IMG/VR virus record: IMGVR_UViG_3300033145_000247
Location: 1-38,724 of that record
Reading direction: 5' to 3' (one strand)
Length of the DNA: 38,724 bases
Source of the DNA: a virus
Positions within the stretch are counted from its first letter, which is position 1. Each line of letters starts with the position of its first letter. Below the pieces are notes generated by a model. That model searched no databases. It was not told where the DNA came from and saw only the letters and a program-made list of their open reading frames with translations. The position numbers were made by a program, and so were the translations under genes. Below, one piece after another: positions 14,187 through 25,844 of this stretch.

Positions 14187-15271
14187 CCGTAACCGCAAAA
14201 CAGATCGTGATTATACAGCGGGACGGATTTACTTATTGCCGGAAATATACCGCCGGAACTTATGATGTAACCGGCGGGGATCAGGGCAATAAGACTTTCA
14301 CGATCGCAGAGGATGTGGCTTGTAAATTTGTAGCCGGATCGACATTTACCATAACCGGGGCAGTTTTACCCCCTGGTAATAATGGCGATTATACTTGCGC
14401 GATCGATGCAACCGGCGACGGTCCGATTACAATCACGGTCTCGGAAATTATACCGAGCGCGACGTTTGACGGTGCAATCGGCGCGATATTTACCAAGCGC
14501 GATGCACAGGCGATTGATTACGATGCCGAGACAGACGGCGGCGCGGAATTCACCCTTTGGGAGAACGCGACCGATTACATGTATGTCGGGCATTCTAAAC
14601 CTTTCGCATGGGTAGGCTTTCGACCTCAAACTGTCGGAGTCGGTTACGGTAATTTTACATTTGAGTATTGGGACGGCGATTCATGGGAATCGTTATCGAC
14701 ATTGCTTAATTCAACTATTGGATTTACACGAGCCGGATATGTCGCCTTTTCAATACCCGGTGACTGGGCCTTGACTACGAACGGCGATAAAACACAATCC
14801 GCGTTCTGGGTCCGGGCTTCACAGGATGAAGCGAGTCCGGCAACACCGGCGAAAGCATACAACCTGCTCCGAAACGTAACACTCGACCGTCCCGTTGTCA
14901 TTCAGCCGATTCATACCACGTCCCGATTCATAATGGACGTGAACCGCTTGCCGCGTTTGAAGGATGTCGCACGGACAACGCCTGATCGACTGGTAATCGA
15001 TGCGACTCACCTTGCCCTGATTATGAGTGAATTAAACATGCTCTGGGACTGTTTCGATCAGCGGCGACCCGTATTCGTCTGGGACGGCACTTTCACATCA
15101 GCCAACCCGAGCTTTACAGCCGATGCCTACTACGAAAGCTACGAGGCTTACATTGACGTCATGCCGCCACGTGCCATGTCGCCCTCGAAAATGGAGCCAT
15201 TCGAGTACACGATAGAATTCATCTGTGGTGTGGTTAAAACAATCGCTGACAGGCTCGGTGCGAACGCATGA
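14183..15271 (+). CDS. Distal tail-type protein with inserted beta domain
   Basis: The 362-residue protein follows the tape measure, the slot of distal tail or baseplate hub proteins. Residues about 27-102 form a module (GNKTFTIAED, GNNGDYTC, ITITVSEIIPSATFDGAIG) that recurs twice in the next gene and once in the fibre gene. The rest has alternating strands (NFTFEYWDGDSWESLS, AYIDVMPPRAMSPSKMEPFEYTIEF), the last part resembling distal-tail proteins that bind the tube end. Assignment comes from gene order and composition. The inserted module could contact host glycans or tail partners. Confidence 0.65.
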   Translation: MTVTAKQIVIIQRDGFTYCRKYTAGTYDVTGGDQGNKTFTIAEDVACKFVAGSTFTITGAVLPPGNNGDYTCAIDATGDGPITITVSEIIPSATFDGAIGAIFTKRDAQAIDYDAETDGGAEFTLWENATDYMYVGHSKPFAWVGFRPQTVGVGYGNFTFEYWDGDSWESLSTLLNSTIGFTRAGYVAFSIPGDWALTTNGDKTQSAFWVRASQDEASPATPAKAYNLLRNVTLDRPVVIQPIHTTSRFIMDVNRLPRLKDVARTTPDRLVIDATHLALIMSELNMLWDCFDQRRPVFVWDGTFTSANPSFTADAYYESYEAYIDVMPPRAMSPSKMEPFEYTIEFICGVVKTIADRLGANA

Positions 15272-22625: not shown

Positions 22626-22657
22626 GGCCCGGTTGAATCGACCGGGCCACTTTTATT
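22626..22657 (+). terminator. Rho-independent terminator closing the late operon
   Basis: GGCCCGGT (22626-22633) pairs perfectly with ACCGGGCC (22641-22648) around a 7-nt loop and is followed by ACTTTTATT. It stands 32 bp after the last late gene. The 150 bp from here to the next promoter hold no gene that I can support. Confidence 0.9.
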
Positions 22658-22756: not shown

Positions 22757-22786
22757 TTGACAGGCTGTACGTAAGTGTGGTATGAT
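22757..22786 (+). promoter_or_regulatory. Strong early promoter
   Basis: TTGACA (22757-22762), an 18-bp spacer ending in the extended -10 TGG, and TATGAT (22781-22786) make this one of the two best sigma70-like promoters in the window. Predicted initiation near 22793 gives a short leader with a GGAGG site before ATG 22814. It opens the early operon. Confidence 0.85.
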
Positions 22787-22793
22787 TAGGGCA

Positions 22794-22817
22794 TCAGATC
22801 AATGGAGGATGTTATGA
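22794..22817 (+). repeat. 24-bp direct repeat (translation start cassette), copy 1
   Basis: This sequence, containing the GGAGG ribosome site and the ATGA of the gene at 22814, is repeated exactly at 23330-23353 before the Xre gene. The second copy begins inside the 3' arm of RNA module 1. The two copies bracket one gene plus that RNA module, as would result from cassette duplication or recombination. Confidence 0.9.
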
Positions 22818-23080: not shown

Positions 23081-23091
23081 GGTACAGAACA

Positions 23092-23333
23092 TTGACAATT
23101 GAATCTAGCATGTGTGGGACTTGTCAGAGTCCGGCAGTGAAGATGCGGGGGATGCAAAAAGCCCCTAACGCCGCGAACGGCAATCATCATGGACGCTAGA
23201 AGCCTCAATGAAGGTGAGTTCTTAGGAATCCTGACAGTGAACTATGAACGATAGACCGGATAGGTGAATTGCAATAGTAGCGGACAGGACCGGAGTGGGG
23301 AATCCCGGCGCACATGCTAGATTGAATTGTCAG
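23092..23333 (+). ncRNA. Structured RNA module 1 (194-nt cargo in conserved helix frame)
   Basis: The 5' arm 23092-23115 and 3' arm 23310-23333 form a 24-bp helix. Its only mismatch is G-G at helix position 10 (23101 with 23324), plus two G-U pairs at the ends. The outer half TTGAxAATTGA is shared with three modules at 25.25-25.61 kb; the inner half is unique but fully paired. The cargo (23116-23309) has no supported ORF and contains GGACT/AGTCC, GGGG/CCCC and GCCG-CGAA-CGGC hairpins, ending in a GGGGAATCCC-containing hairpin next to the 3' arm. The module fills the roughly 300-bp gap between two early genes, downstream of the strong promoter at 22757, so it should be transcribed. I cannot assign a known RNA family. 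Confidence 0.75.
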
Positions 23334-23353
23334 ATCAATGGAGGATGTTATGA
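23330..23353 (+). repeat. 24-bp direct repeat (translation start cassette), copy 2
   Basis: This is identical to 22794-22817. Its first bases overlap the end of the 3' arm of RNA module 1, and it carries the ribosome site and ATG of the Xre-family gene. Confidence 0.9.
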
Positions 23354-23574
23354 CCGAAACGGAAGTTATTAAAAACCATCTCAGAGAGTGGCGAGTTAAG
23401 AAGTTGATGACTCAGAAGGAACTGGCTAAGGCCAGCGGGGTCAGCCAGGTCACGATCAGTTTCATTGAGAATCAGCTTTCCGATCCGATGAACTTGACGA
23501 AACAGAAACTTGCCCGCGCCTTGAAGGTTGAGGTTGAGCAGATATTCCCGCCGAGAGACAGGAACTCAAAATGA
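23350..23574 (+). CDS. Xre/Cro-type helix-turn-helix regulator
   Basis: Started at ATG 23350 with GGAGG at 23341-23344, the protein is 74 residues. It is a complete single HTH_3 domain: IKNHLREWRVKKLMTQKELAKASGVSQVTISFIENQ, with the recognition helix at about 32-40, then KLARALKVEVEQIFPP, the usual ending of Cro/C1-type minimal regulators. No dimerisation or cleavage domain is present. It probably controls the early promoter region. Its leader overlaps the closing helix of RNA module 1, so folding of that RNA could affect its translation. Confidence 0.88.
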   Translation: MTETEVIKNHLREWRVKKLMTQKELAKASGVSQVTISFIENQLSDPMNLTKQKLARALKVEVEQIFPPRDRNSK

Positions 23575-23915
23575 CGCATACATCCCTCGGGGAAAACCTT
23601 GAACCACCGGACGGTATCGAGCCGTTGGACTGCCCGGAATGCGATCATCCGATGGAGCATATCGGCGGATGGGACTTTGAATGCAAGTGGCCTCCATGCG
23701 ACACGAACAGCATCGATTGTAAAGAGTATTACGCTGACCTGGAGGATAAGGTTGACGAACTCAACAGTAAGCTATACAGGCGGGCGCAGCTACTCAGGGG
23801 ATTGTTGAAATGTATTCACTACGAGCAGATACGCGGATCGGCTACATTCAATGCCATGGTGGCTGATTTGAAGATCGTGCTGAAAGTAGACGAGAAGAAA
23901 AACGGAGGACGATGA
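23571..23915 (+). CDS. Zinc-ribbon plus coiled-coil protein
   Basis: The 114-residue protein overlaps the Xre gene by 4 bp. Residues 21-24 (CPEC) and 38-43 (CKWPPC) form a probable zinc ribbon with the intervening HPMEHIGGWDFE. A helical segment follows (YYADLEDKVDELNSKLYRRAQLL), likely a short coiled coil. The arrangement of metal knuckle then coiled coil is frequent in small early phage proteins of unknown role and recurs in this genome (28223, 29155, 29538). Confidence 0.75.
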   Translation: MTHTSLGENLEPPDGIEPLDCPECDHPMEHIGGWDFECKWPPCDTNSIDCKEYYADLEDKVDELNSKLYRRAQLLRGLLKCIHYEQIRGSATFNAMVADLKIVLKVDEKKNGGR

Positions 23916-23916
23916 C

Positions 23917-24165
23917 ATGAACGAGACAGAAATCAAGGCAAAGGCAACACGTACAGCGACGGAAATACTTGCACTTGAAGAGGAGAAGTTAGACCGCATC
24001 CGTGCCGAAGAACGCAAGCGCATCCGTGACCAGGTTGAGAAGTGGCGGGATGAGGCATTAGAAAGGAGCGATAAAGCTCCAGAGCACGGATCAATGTGCC
24101 ACTACAATGGGAGAGCGGAGGCTTACGAAACTGTCCTCAACTTGATTAACGAGAAGAAGAATTAG
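23917..24165 (+). CDS. Charged helical protein, unknown
   Basis: The 82-residue protein is almost entirely predicted helix with alternating Glu/Lys/Arg (LALEEEKLDRIRAEERKRIRDQVEKWRDEALERSDKAP) and ends GRAEAYETVLNLINEKKN. The C-terminal pattern resembles many small phage proteins that end in a helix of the type AEAY.T.L.LI. A GGAGG site lies upstream of ATG 23917. No catalytic feature is visible. Confidence 0.7.
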   Translation: MNETEIKAKATRTATEILALEEEKLDRIRAEERKRIRDQVEKWRDEALERSDKAPEHGSMCHYNGRAEAYETVLNLINEKKN

Positions 24166-24184
24166 TACCTCCTCCATTGATAAG

Positions 24185-24216
24185 GCCGGGGAGTATTCGC
24201 ACGATTACTCCCCGGC
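24185..24216 (+). other. Perfect 11-bp intergenic hairpin
   Basis: GCCGGGGAGTA (24185-24195) pairs with TACTCCCCGGC (24206-24216) around a 10-nt loop in the 69-bp gap between two genes. No T-tract follows on the + strand (TGATAAAAAGG), so intrinsic termination is doubtful. mRNA stability or processing is more likely. Confidence 0.6.
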
Positions 24217-24234
24217 TGATAAAAAGGTGATGAC

Positions 24235-24546
24235 ATGAGCGCGATAGAAAAAGTAATCGAAATATCAAAGTCCGGCTATGAATTGATTCAGGAAGAAGAT
24301 TGGTACGAGTTACTTGATGAAGTGAAGGAGCTTATGCCTGAACTCGCAGAACTCCGCAAGGATTCAGAGCGTTTGGAGTGGCTTAAATCCATGATGTCGG
24401 GCAAGACGCAAGTATTTATTATCTTTGATCTTCTTAACTCGATTAAACCGTGGGGCACGTATCGGAAACGTGCCAAGAGACCAAAGCCGTTAGAAAGATT
24501 CGAGGATTTCAATGCCGCAATCGACGCGGCGATGCTGAACACTTGA
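24235..24546 (+). CDS. Small helical phage protein, unknown
   Basis: The 103-residue protein starts MSAIEKVIEISKSGYELIQEEDWYELLDEVKELMPELAEL. It contains RKDSERLEWLKSMM, a phrase common in small uncharacterised phage proteins, and ends FEDFNAAIDAAMLNT. The promoter of the next gene begins within its last codon. Its role is unknown. Confidence 0.65.
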   Translation: MSAIEKVIEISKSGYELIQEEDWYELLDEVKELMPELAELRKDSERLEWLKSMMSGKTQVFIIFDLLNSIKPWGTYRKRAKRPKPLERFEDFNAAIDAAMLNT

Positions 24547-24572
24547 CAGACTACACAAGGGTATGGTATAAA
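24543..24572 (+). promoter_or_regulatory. Consensus promoter giving a leaderless transcript
   Basis: TTGACA (24543-24548), an 18-bp spacer ending in TGG, and TATAAA (24567-24572) are followed after exactly 6 nt by ATG 24579. No Shine-Dalgarno lies between, so the mRNA would start at or next to the start codon. Confidence 0.82.
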
Positions 24573-24578
24573 AGTGTT

Positions 24579-24809
24579 ATGAAAAAGAGAAAGAAACTAT
24601 CGAGGGGAACGCCGACACCACGCGAAAAGGATATCCTGGCGGCGATCCGGCTCTATCAGAAGAACAATAAACGCCCGCCGACCTTTGAGGAACTTGGCGA
24701 AGCAATCGGAATGGCGAAAGTGACGGCGGTAGGCCATTGTCGAAGGCTACAAGATAAAGGACTGGTCACATGGGATAAATGGAAGTCCCGCACGTTGCGA
24801 ATACTTTGA
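24579..24809 (+). CDS. Winged-helix regulator (LexA N-terminal-like), leaderless
   Basis: The 76-residue protein has a basic start (MKKRKKLSRGTPTPREKDIL), then the LexA-domain pattern AIRLYQKNNKRPPTFEELGEAIGMAKVTAVGHCRRLQDKGLVTWDKWKSRTLRIL, with recognition helix about 48-60 and wing about 61-76. It stops just after the wing and has no protease part. ATG 24579 is set by the promoter. Having its own consensus promoter inside an operon suggests a repressor or activator needed early. It is a family mate of the proteins at 912 and 36873. Confidence 0.82.
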   Translation: MKKRKKLSRGTPTPREKDILAAIRLYQKNNKRPPTFEELGEAIGMAKVTAVGHCRRLQDKGLVTWDKWKSRTLRIL

Positions 24810-24823
24810 AAAGGAGCGAACGA

Positions 24824-25165
24824 ATGGCGAAGAATTATATCAGCCGGGGCGACGTATTAACGCTTACCGCCCAAGCAGCCCACACATCAGGCTCACCGTA
24901 CAGGATCAGCGGATTCAATGGTGTCGCACTGATTTCTGTCGAGTCGGGCGAACAGTTGAGTTTCCAGCTTTCAGGGATCTTCGAGTTCACAATGAGCGAT
25001 GCCGCTGAAGTCGGCAGCCGGATATTCATCGACCTCAATGAGGGACTTCATGCCACCGGCGGCGGTCCCCAACCTATCGGCCAGGACTGGATACTGTTCG
25101 GTCGAGCCGTCACTGCAAGCGACGCGGAAGGCAAGTTTTACTGTCGCTTGCTTCAGTCAGACTAA
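24824..25165 (+). CDS. DUF2190-type capsid decoration-like protein
   Basis: Started at ATG 24824 (AAGGAG at 24811-24816), the protein is 113 residues. The opening MAKNYISRGDVLTLTAQAA and the beta-barrel-like phrases FNGVALISVESGEQLSFQLSGIFEFT and DWILFGRAVTASDAEGKFYCRLLQSD match the DUF2190 pattern, usually a small head protein encoded beside the capsid gene. Here it lies about 17 kb from the capsid gene, in the early region directly before the RNA module trio. It may have moved there, or may have a different job such as binding the RNAs, which is speculation. Confidence 0.7.
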   Translation: MAKNYISRGDVLTLTAQAAHTSGSPYRISGFNGVALISVESGEQLSFQLSGIFEFTMSDAAEVGSRIFIDLNEGLHATGGGPQPIGQDWILFGRAVTASDAEGKFYCRLLQSD

Positions 25166-25206
25166 CTCTCGATGGGTTAGCCCACGAAAACTTGGTAAGG
25201 GGCGAC

Positions 25207-25240
25207 GCGGCCCGTTCTTAGCCCGCACGGGCAAGGCCGC
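25207..25240 (+). other. Nested GC-rich hairpin before RNA module 2
   Basis: GCGGCC (25207-25212) pairs with GGCCGC (25235-25240) and encloses a second stem, GCCC with GGGC, around 25221-25232. It occupies most of the gap between the DUF2190-type gene and RNA module 2, and no T-tract follows. It may belong to the same precursor RNA. Confidence 0.55.
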
Positions 25241-25248
25241 AAAGCACC

Positions 25249-25375
25249 TTGATAATTGAGTTGGATGCTTGACCGCAACCAGGCCGACAATGCGGGTGGG
25301 GTTGTCACGGTGACAGCGCGCAATCCGGGGTTCGAGTCCCTTTCCCCCCACACAAGCATCCTACTGAGTTATCAA
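25249..25375 (+). ncRNA. Structured RNA module 2 (T-arm-like cargo)
   Basis: Arms 25249-25271 and 25353-25375 form a 23-bp helix with the constant outer half (TTGATAATTGA against TGAGTTATCAA), a G-G mismatch at position 10 and a U-U at position 14. The inner half GGATGCTTG/CAAGCATCC is perfect and unique to this module. The 81-nt cargo has CCGCA/TGCGG, GTGGGG (25296-25301) with CCCCAC (25346-25351), TGTCA-CGG-TGACA, and a hairpin GGG-TTCGAGT-CCC like a tRNA T arm. There is no D arm or usable anticodon arm, so it is not a normal tRNA. It is preceded by CAAAGCACC, a linker repeated before modules 3 and 4. Confidence 0.78.
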
Positions 25376-25384
25376 AAAAGCACC

Positions 25385-25492
25385 TTGAAAATTGAGTAGG
25401 GCATCTGTTACCGGACCCGGTATGCGCAGAGGTCAAGATGGTTTCTAGGGTTCAAATCCCATTATCTCACAGGTGTCCTACTGAATTATCAA
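25385..25492 (+). ncRNA. Structured RNA module 3 (T-arm-like cargo)
   Basis: Arms 25385-25407 and 25470-25492 pair over 23 positions with the constant outer half, an A-A at position 5 and G-G at position 10. The inner half GTAGGGCATCTG/CAGGTGTCCTAC is kept paired through two G-U pairs. The 62-nt cargo contains TACCGG-AC-CCGGTA and a hairpin GGG-TTCAAAT-CCC resembling a T arm. The linker AAAAGCACC joins it to module 2. No ORF or ribosome site is seen. Confidence 0.78.
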
Positions 25493-25503
25493 ACAAAAGC
25501 ATC

Positions 25504-25606
25504 TTGATAATTGAATGAGTGCTCGTGCAGAAGTCCGGCGGTGTGAGGCTCCAGGGTCAAAGCATGTCGGCAGCAAGTCGCGACCGGGCACTCATTGAGT
25601 TTTCAA
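25504..25606 (+). ncRNA. Structured RNA module 4
   Basis: Arms 25504-25525 and 25585-25606 pair over 22 positions: constant outer half, U-U at position 5, G-G at position 10, and inner half ATGAGTGCTCG/CGGGCACTCAT with one U-G pair. The 59-nt cargo is different again (GTCCGGCGG, CTCCAGGGTCAAAGC, CAGCAAGTCGCG) and lacks the clear T-arm hairpin. It follows linker ACAAAAGCATC. The AGGAG site of the next gene starts 4 nt after the module. Confidence 0.75.
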
Positions 25607-25622
25607 ACACAGGAGTTGAGAA

Positions 25623-25844
25623 ATGTCGGAATTCATATCCTCACACAAACTTCTACATCTCACTGACAACCTCCGAGTAGTATGTTTATCCGATGAGGAT
25701 TTATTGAAAGAATATCTGGGAGCCGGACGAATCGGCGATACTCACGCATTCAGATTCGGATTTGCACGCTCAACTTTAGAGGATGCCTTACAGCACATTG
25801 AAGAACTTGAAAGGAAAATAAACAAGGAGGCCGACGGTGACTGA
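25623..25844 (+). CDS. Small protein before Gp157-like gene, unknown
   Basis: The 73-residue protein (MSEFISSHKLLHLTDNLRVV and onward) ends in a helix LEDALQHIEELERKINKEADGD. AGGAG at about 25610 lies just after RNA module 4, so its translation may depend on that RNA being processed or folded. It overlaps the next gene by 8 bp. No family is recognised. Confidence 0.65.
   Translation: MSEFISSHKLLHLTDNLRVVCLSDEDLLKEYLGAGRIGDTHAFRFGFARSTLEDALQHIEELERKINKEADGD

Follow-up and report, generated by a model that had tools for sequence, protein, structure and literature searches.

BoxA is seen mainly as the antitermination signal of ribosomal RNA (rRNA) operons; it is also used in the nut sites of phages, in a small number of regulated genes and in clustered regularly interspaced short palindromic repeat (CRISPR) arrays. 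For the antitermination complexes of rRNA (rrn) operons boxA is both necessary and sufficient, and RNase III takes leader-trailer helices as substrates (PMC10250234). A boxA placed before a synthetic CRISPR array raised the expression of precursor CRISPR RNA (crRNA) approximately tenfold (PMC7862264). Here, we describe four structured elements in the IMG/VR virus record IMGVR_UViG_3300033145_000247, analysed over its whole stretch of 38,724 bases (the window), which combine a boxA and a long closing helix of the leader-trailer kind around cargos unrelated to rRNA.

The four elements (modules 1-4) lie at 23092-23333, 25249-25375, 25385-25492 and 25504-25606, where a preliminary description had placed them; all are intergenic, structured and on the sense strand. 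Each is closed by a helix that measured 22-23 bp (22-24 bp in that description). The outer arms read TTGA-N-AATTGA on the 5′ side against TGA[AG]TT-N-TCAA on the 3′ side, and every element has a G-G mismatch at position 10, which confirms the constant frame described earlier save for one small departure: the final base of element 1 is G, forming a T-G pair, where the others have A. Position 5 of the frame is free and under no pairing constraint, and two of the four elements leave it unpaired. Against shuffled sequence, RNA folding gave z-scores of −5.9, −3.8, −3.7 and −3.4 for elements 1-4, respectively, and the helices of modules 2-4 also form in a single fold of positions 25150-25640 (491 nt). 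A frame-plus-helix score of at least 19 was reached only by the modules, their relatives outside the window and one spurious pairing, in which the 5′ arm belongs to element 2 and the 3′ arm to element 3. The modules score 19-21, against a score never above 15 in shuffled contigs (six shuffles, three whole viral contigs).

Sequence comparison identified the 5′ arm, together with the ‘GCACC’ linker that precedes it, as the boxA element of bacterial rRNA operons. The frame had previously been thought to match nothing known, and the linker AAAAGCACC to be a leftover between cut units; neither idea is supported, as AAAAGCACC is the upstream half of boxA and the frame is the boxA and pre-23S leader-trailer helix of bacterial rRNA operons. 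One relative in another phage, module G079b, is preceded by the canonical rRNA-operon boxA GCTCTTTAACAATT. As this is the textbook boxA, we collected 16S-23S spacers from three bacterial phyla by searching for the 16S 3′ end, which worked where strict 23S-start patterns had recovered few rrn operons. Spacers of several phyla hold the same element (GCTCATTGACAATTGAATATT, GATCTTTGATAATTGAATATG, GCACCTTGAAAACTGC and TTGCACCTTGAAAATTACATAG; further examples are GTTCTTTGACAATTGAATAG and GCACCTTGAAAATTACATAG), situated 35-180 nt before the 23S gene.

We built a boxA weight matrix from 18 bacterial rRNA spacers only, with zero phage data. Scored with this matrix, the window modules rank 1, 3, 4 and 6 among 77,400 window positions; at ranks 2 and 5 the matrix picks up modules 2 and 3 again, through the complements of their 3′ arms. 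Their scores span 13.6-19.8 bits, and the next unrelated site reaches 9.9 bits. All four boxA elements are on the plus strand: GAACATTGACAATTG of module 1 (23087-23101, rank 6), GCACCTTGATAATTG of module 2 (25244-25258, rank 3), GCACCTTGAAAATTG of module 3 (25380-25394, rank 1) and GCATCTTGATAATTG of module 4 (25499-25513, rank 4). Matches to individual rRNA spacers are extensive: CATTGACAATTGAAT of module 1 is identical in spacers L370 and L371, GCACCTTGA of module 2 is also present in L349 and GCACCTTGAAAATT of module 3 is identical in L413. Module 1 has 15 bases identical with a single rRNA spacer and module 3 has 14, with a different spacer. Module G079b ranks first of 79,952 positions, and overall boxA sequence identity with rrn holds for five of the seven modules known to us. 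Nothing on phage boxA frames was found in the literature searched; a description elsewhere is possible.

The likeness extends from boxA to the helix. In all 11 rrn operons tested, boxA and the sequence downstream of it pair best with the operon's own 23S trailer, ahead of every foreign trailer, the advantage being marginal in one (L391). The rrn helix begins at the boxA TTGA and extends inward, a register that it shares with the phage modules; examples are the pairings of TTGATAATTGAATATGTTGTGA with TCACAACATATTCAGTTATCA and of TTGAGAACTGCATAGCGAGCACGA with TCGTGCTCGCTATGGAGTGCTCAA. The latter is one of three actinobacterial pre-23S stems (L393, L455 and L457) with a G-G mismatch at the tenth pair. 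In sequence, register and geometry, the phage modules are shortened pre-23S leader-trailer frames with a cargo in the place of the rRNA. With 22-23 bp and one or few mismatches, their stems have the nearly continuous helix of approximately 20 bp or more that characterizes RNase III stems, and the earlier suggestion that the frame is a protein-binding or RNase III-type signal is, by analogy, likely.

Pattern scans revealed three further modules in two unrelated viral contigs, giving seven modules in three contigs. Exact frame patterns scanned in viral contigs returned mostly coding or AT-rich chance matches, and only L011 and L268 passed an independent test of the inner helix. The L011 module spans 98 nt in a contig of 27.8 kb with 37% G+C, and the L268 module spans 73 nt directly behind an RtcB gene in a contig of 40 kb with 29.5% G+C. 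A relaxed scan of the L268 contig yielded a second module at 14500-14695, in which the third pair has changed from G-C to A-U, the G-G mismatch is kept and the cargo is new. Where tested, the window phage had no proteins in common with the L011 or L268 contigs. The G-G mismatch is common to all seven modules.

Over the seven frames, pairing cells amount to 89%, and both sides have changed in 14 of 23 pairs (8.1 ± 1.7 in shuffles, none of 500 reaching 14). The covariation score for the seven modules was 0.694, compared to 0.198 ± 0.039 when shuffled and 0.033-0.184 with slid partners. These data support the view, already taken in the preliminary description, that the four window elements are selected RNA structures rather than DNA repeats, with a constant frame, a compensatory inner helix and an exchangeable cargo.

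Several other observations concern the relatives. The region L257:11240-11343 (G001:25240-25343, minus strand) is possibly a divergent second module of the L011 phage; its closing helix is 19 bp long and lacks the G-G mismatch, and behind it stands TCAAGCGTAA, as behind the first module. In the G079 phage, the RtcB RNA ligase gene occupies L347:1713-2903 and the module lies directly behind it at L347:2905-2977, while five tRNAs are found at L347:16927-17520. A RecA-like gene at L347:10868-12919 is apparently interrupted by an intein-like insert, as judged by eye from the translation. The association of module and RtcB is probably a coincidence, as the frame was present at none of 45 other viral RtcB loci; in L314 and L320, viral RtcB genes have tRNA-like sequences immediately after them. 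Matches from genome scans were mostly seven-base tandem repeats (TTGAGAA-type) in Bacteroidetes and others, unrelated to the frame. A search with cargo motifs gave no additional relative, nor did searches via Gp157 or the terminase, and a host search via the terminase and via exact boxA in Actinobacteriota returned nothing beyond one chance match.

How might such a cassette work? BoxA identity, helix geometry and register, compensatory change, occurrence in three unrelated contigs, sense orientation and intergenic placement form the observed base from which we argue. By analogy with rRNA operons, the modules probably bring in antitermination by NusB-S10 and form stems of the RNase III type, from which small RNAs are released. 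What we infer is that Nus factors bind and prevent termination, that RNase III cuts the stem and that the cargo is stable and has a use; the steps beyond ‘boxA plus helix’ are drawn from work on rRNA (PMC10250234, PMC6614801) and on the boxA of CRISPR arrays (PMC7862264). During transcription, boxA would be single-stranded and would bind host NusB-S10, with SuhB, NusA and NusG joining, and the resulting complex would make RNA polymerase resistant to Rho over the untranslated stretch. The tethered 5′ arm would then be handed to the 3′ arm as it emerges from the polymerase, so that boxA ends up inside the helix. As happens to pre-rRNA, RNase III would cleave this long helix once complete; the cargo would come free in the form of a stable small RNA, and the neighbouring mRNAs would be separated. 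The wider proposition, that unrelated phages carry cassettes mimicking rRNA operons around exchangeable, partly tRNA-like small RNAs, so that the host's line for rRNA transcription and maturation makes phage RNAs, is one to which we give an even chance. If true, it would mean that the whole rRNA frame (boxA plus leader-trailer helix) is transferable and that rRNA-type transcription and maturation can be moved to other RNAs, and it would explain how phages produce and protect untranslated structured RNAs. The signature could be used to search viral genomes for undescribed small RNAs, and the modules, at approximately 100 nt versus 3 kb, offer a minimal model for the coupling of boxA, NusB-S10 and helix closure.

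Some of the evidence pulls in the other direction. BoxA is short and AT-rich; AT-rich viral DNA therefore often matches it by chance, and the motif alone is weak evidence. Modules L011 and G079a lack the upstream half of boxA, and their matrix ranks are ordinary (7 of 55,518 and 216 of 79,952, respectively). The G-G mismatch is rare among rrn stems, most of which have a standard G-C pair at this position. Finally, the outside modules, which do preserve the pairing, were partly picked by a helix-pairing filter, so their pairing is not fully independent evidence. A scan of viral loci totalling 1.95 Mb for boxA together with a strong helix singled out the window modules and G079b alone, the remainder being at shuffle level. 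It is thus boxA combined with the helix, rather than the boxA motif alone, that stands out in AT-rich phages.

In module 1, the 5′ arm (23092-23114) and the 3′ arm or trailer (23311-23333) enclose a cargo of 196 nt (23115-23310) with a multibranched fold, no Rfam match and no rRNA similarity; a resemblance to the 5′ end of 23S, seen by eye, was rejected as it did not rise above shuffles. The arms of module 2 are at 25249-25271 and 25353-25375, and part of its cargo (25294-25349) is a putative tRNA-like domain without an anticodon arm, with a T-arm motif at 25328-25340. Its best Rfam match, the tRNA-like family mascRNA-menRNA, whose type has acceptor, D-like and T-arms but lacks the anticodon arm, is full length at 15.8 bits (E 1.6), below the gathering score of 42.5. 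Module 3 (arms 25385-25407 and 25470-25492) likewise has a T-arm motif, GGGTTCAAATCCC at 25448-25460, just inside the 3′ arm; these are the only two such motifs in the whole window on either strand. Module 4 (arms 25504-25525 and 25585-25606) encloses a 59 nt hairpin (25526-25584). All these features are on the plus strand. The cargos contain no open reading frame of consequence. ARAGORN at default settings found no tRNA in them, relaxed settings gave only low-scoring artefacts and no cloverleaf was complete. No cargo matched any of 4227 Rfam families at gathering score, GOLLD, ROOL, drum and skipping-rope included, and the Y RNA models gave no match even at a permissive E-value. Similarity to rRNA or its spacers was not above shuffled controls, and Rfam scans gave no match to large-subunit rRNA. 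The cargos of module 1 and L011 have CGATAGACCGG in common, followed by GCAATA (p 0.003), so judging by sequence some cargo may be related between phages.

The window has a siphovirus-type gene set (terminase, portal, capsid and tail, plus Gp157 and RecT). A terminator at 22626-22648 closes the structural block, after which a strong sigma70-type promoter opens the next operon (22757-22786, plus strand; TTGACA-18-TATGAT with an extended −10 and 11 of 12 consensus matches). This predicted promoter heads the operon that holds all the modules, each of them on the coding strand. Module 1 is flanked by a short gene and a Cro/CI-type regulator gene, and modules 2-4 follow one another in the interval between a gene for a cement-like protein and an uncharacterized gene that precedes Gp157. 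The Phage_cement_2-like gene (24824-25165) is separate from the structural block and immediately precedes the module array, and a hairpin stretch at 25161-25246 (GCGGCC/GGCCGC), without the boxA frame, is directly upstream of module 2. An exact 24-nt repeat, TCAGATCAATGGAGGATGTTATGA, at 22794-22817 and 23330-23353 contains, for two genes, both the ribosome-binding site and the start. On the same strand, 24167-24181 is its complement at 14 of 15 positions and might mask the ribosome-binding site or form a larger closing helix.

The main rival to small RNA release, which we regard as unlikely, is that the frame serves messenger RNA (mRNA): boxA repeats would keep the polymerase processive, the helices would be RNase III sites separating cistrons and the enclosed RNA would be a spacer. 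Such a role suits modules that are all intergenic and on the coding strand (in the window with a strong promoter ahead of them), two of them overlapping or touching the stop codon of the upstream gene, and boxA does act on downstream transcription in rrn operons and before CRISPR arrays (PMC10250234, PMC7862264). However, modules 2-4 stand in tandem without a gene between them, which would be needless for separating mRNAs, and a mere spacer leaves unexplained why the cargos fold well, why two have tRNA-like T-arms in the same relative place and why those of module 1 and L011 share CGATAGACCGG. A relic of an rrn operon, in which the cargos are decayed host rRNA or tRNA genes, would likewise yield a frame of the same kind as pre-23S and T-arms like those of spacer tRNAs. 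This is very improbable given helices that are intact and covarying, four copies in one phage with modules in unrelated phages, cargos whose rRNA or spacer resemblance stays within shuffled controls, and the lack of any intermediate with a recognizable rRNA cargo among the loci seen.

The remaining two explanations start from the closing stem. In bacterial Y RNAs, a conserved lower stem supports a variable interior (PMC4726728), and on this plan the constant stem of the modules would bind a Ro60/Rsr protein with the variable, partly tRNA-like interior as effector; the tRNA-like parts of modules 2 and 3 and the RtcB gene adjoining one relative would fit. Yet TROVE (Ro60, PF05731) is absent from the window and from the record of L011, though these records may be incomplete, the Rfam models including Y RNA gave no match, and the frame is missing from the other viral RtcB loci. 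As boxA already accounts for the constant part, the idea was dropped and retains very little probability. Least probable of all is a small mobile DNA element, akin to miniature inverted-repeat transposable elements, with the arms as its terminal inverted repeats. The repeats do have constant ends, and AAAGCACC on both sides of module 2 resembles a target duplication, but the repeated AAAGCACC is boxA and module 1 has no such duplication. Constancy is confined to the outer 11 nt; in their inner halves the arms have entirely different sequences from copy to copy and still pair, G-U pairs included, and every copy is sense and intergenic.

Compared with described systems, the modules share with boxA-led CRISPR arrays a boxA on a non-rRNA, non-coding transcript (PMC7862264, citing Stringer et al.), but have no repeats, spacers or Cas genes, and their boxA is part of the closing helix. 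Lambda-type nut sites are likewise a phage use of boxA; in the modules, no boxB hairpin or N-like protein was identified (no dedicated model search was made), and each of the multiple sites comes with a long closing helix and a cargo. Bacterial Y RNAs (YrlA and others), reported from some phages (PMC12282133), resemble the modules in their conserved closing stem, exchangeable interior and tRNA-like parts, and differ in that the modules have a boxA as the constant part, with no Rfam match and no Ro60 gene in the records searched. GOLLD and ROOL are also structured non-coding phage RNAs, but are much larger single RNAs and gave no Rfam match to the modules. The closest counterpart is the pre-23S helix with its spacer boxA, which likewise has boxA at the foot of a long helix that starts at TTGA, and the same variable, covarying inner helix around a structured RNA; the modules differ in enclosing 27-196 nt of RNA unrelated to rRNA, and in being phage-borne, repeated in tandem and marked by the G-G mismatch in seven of seven cases.

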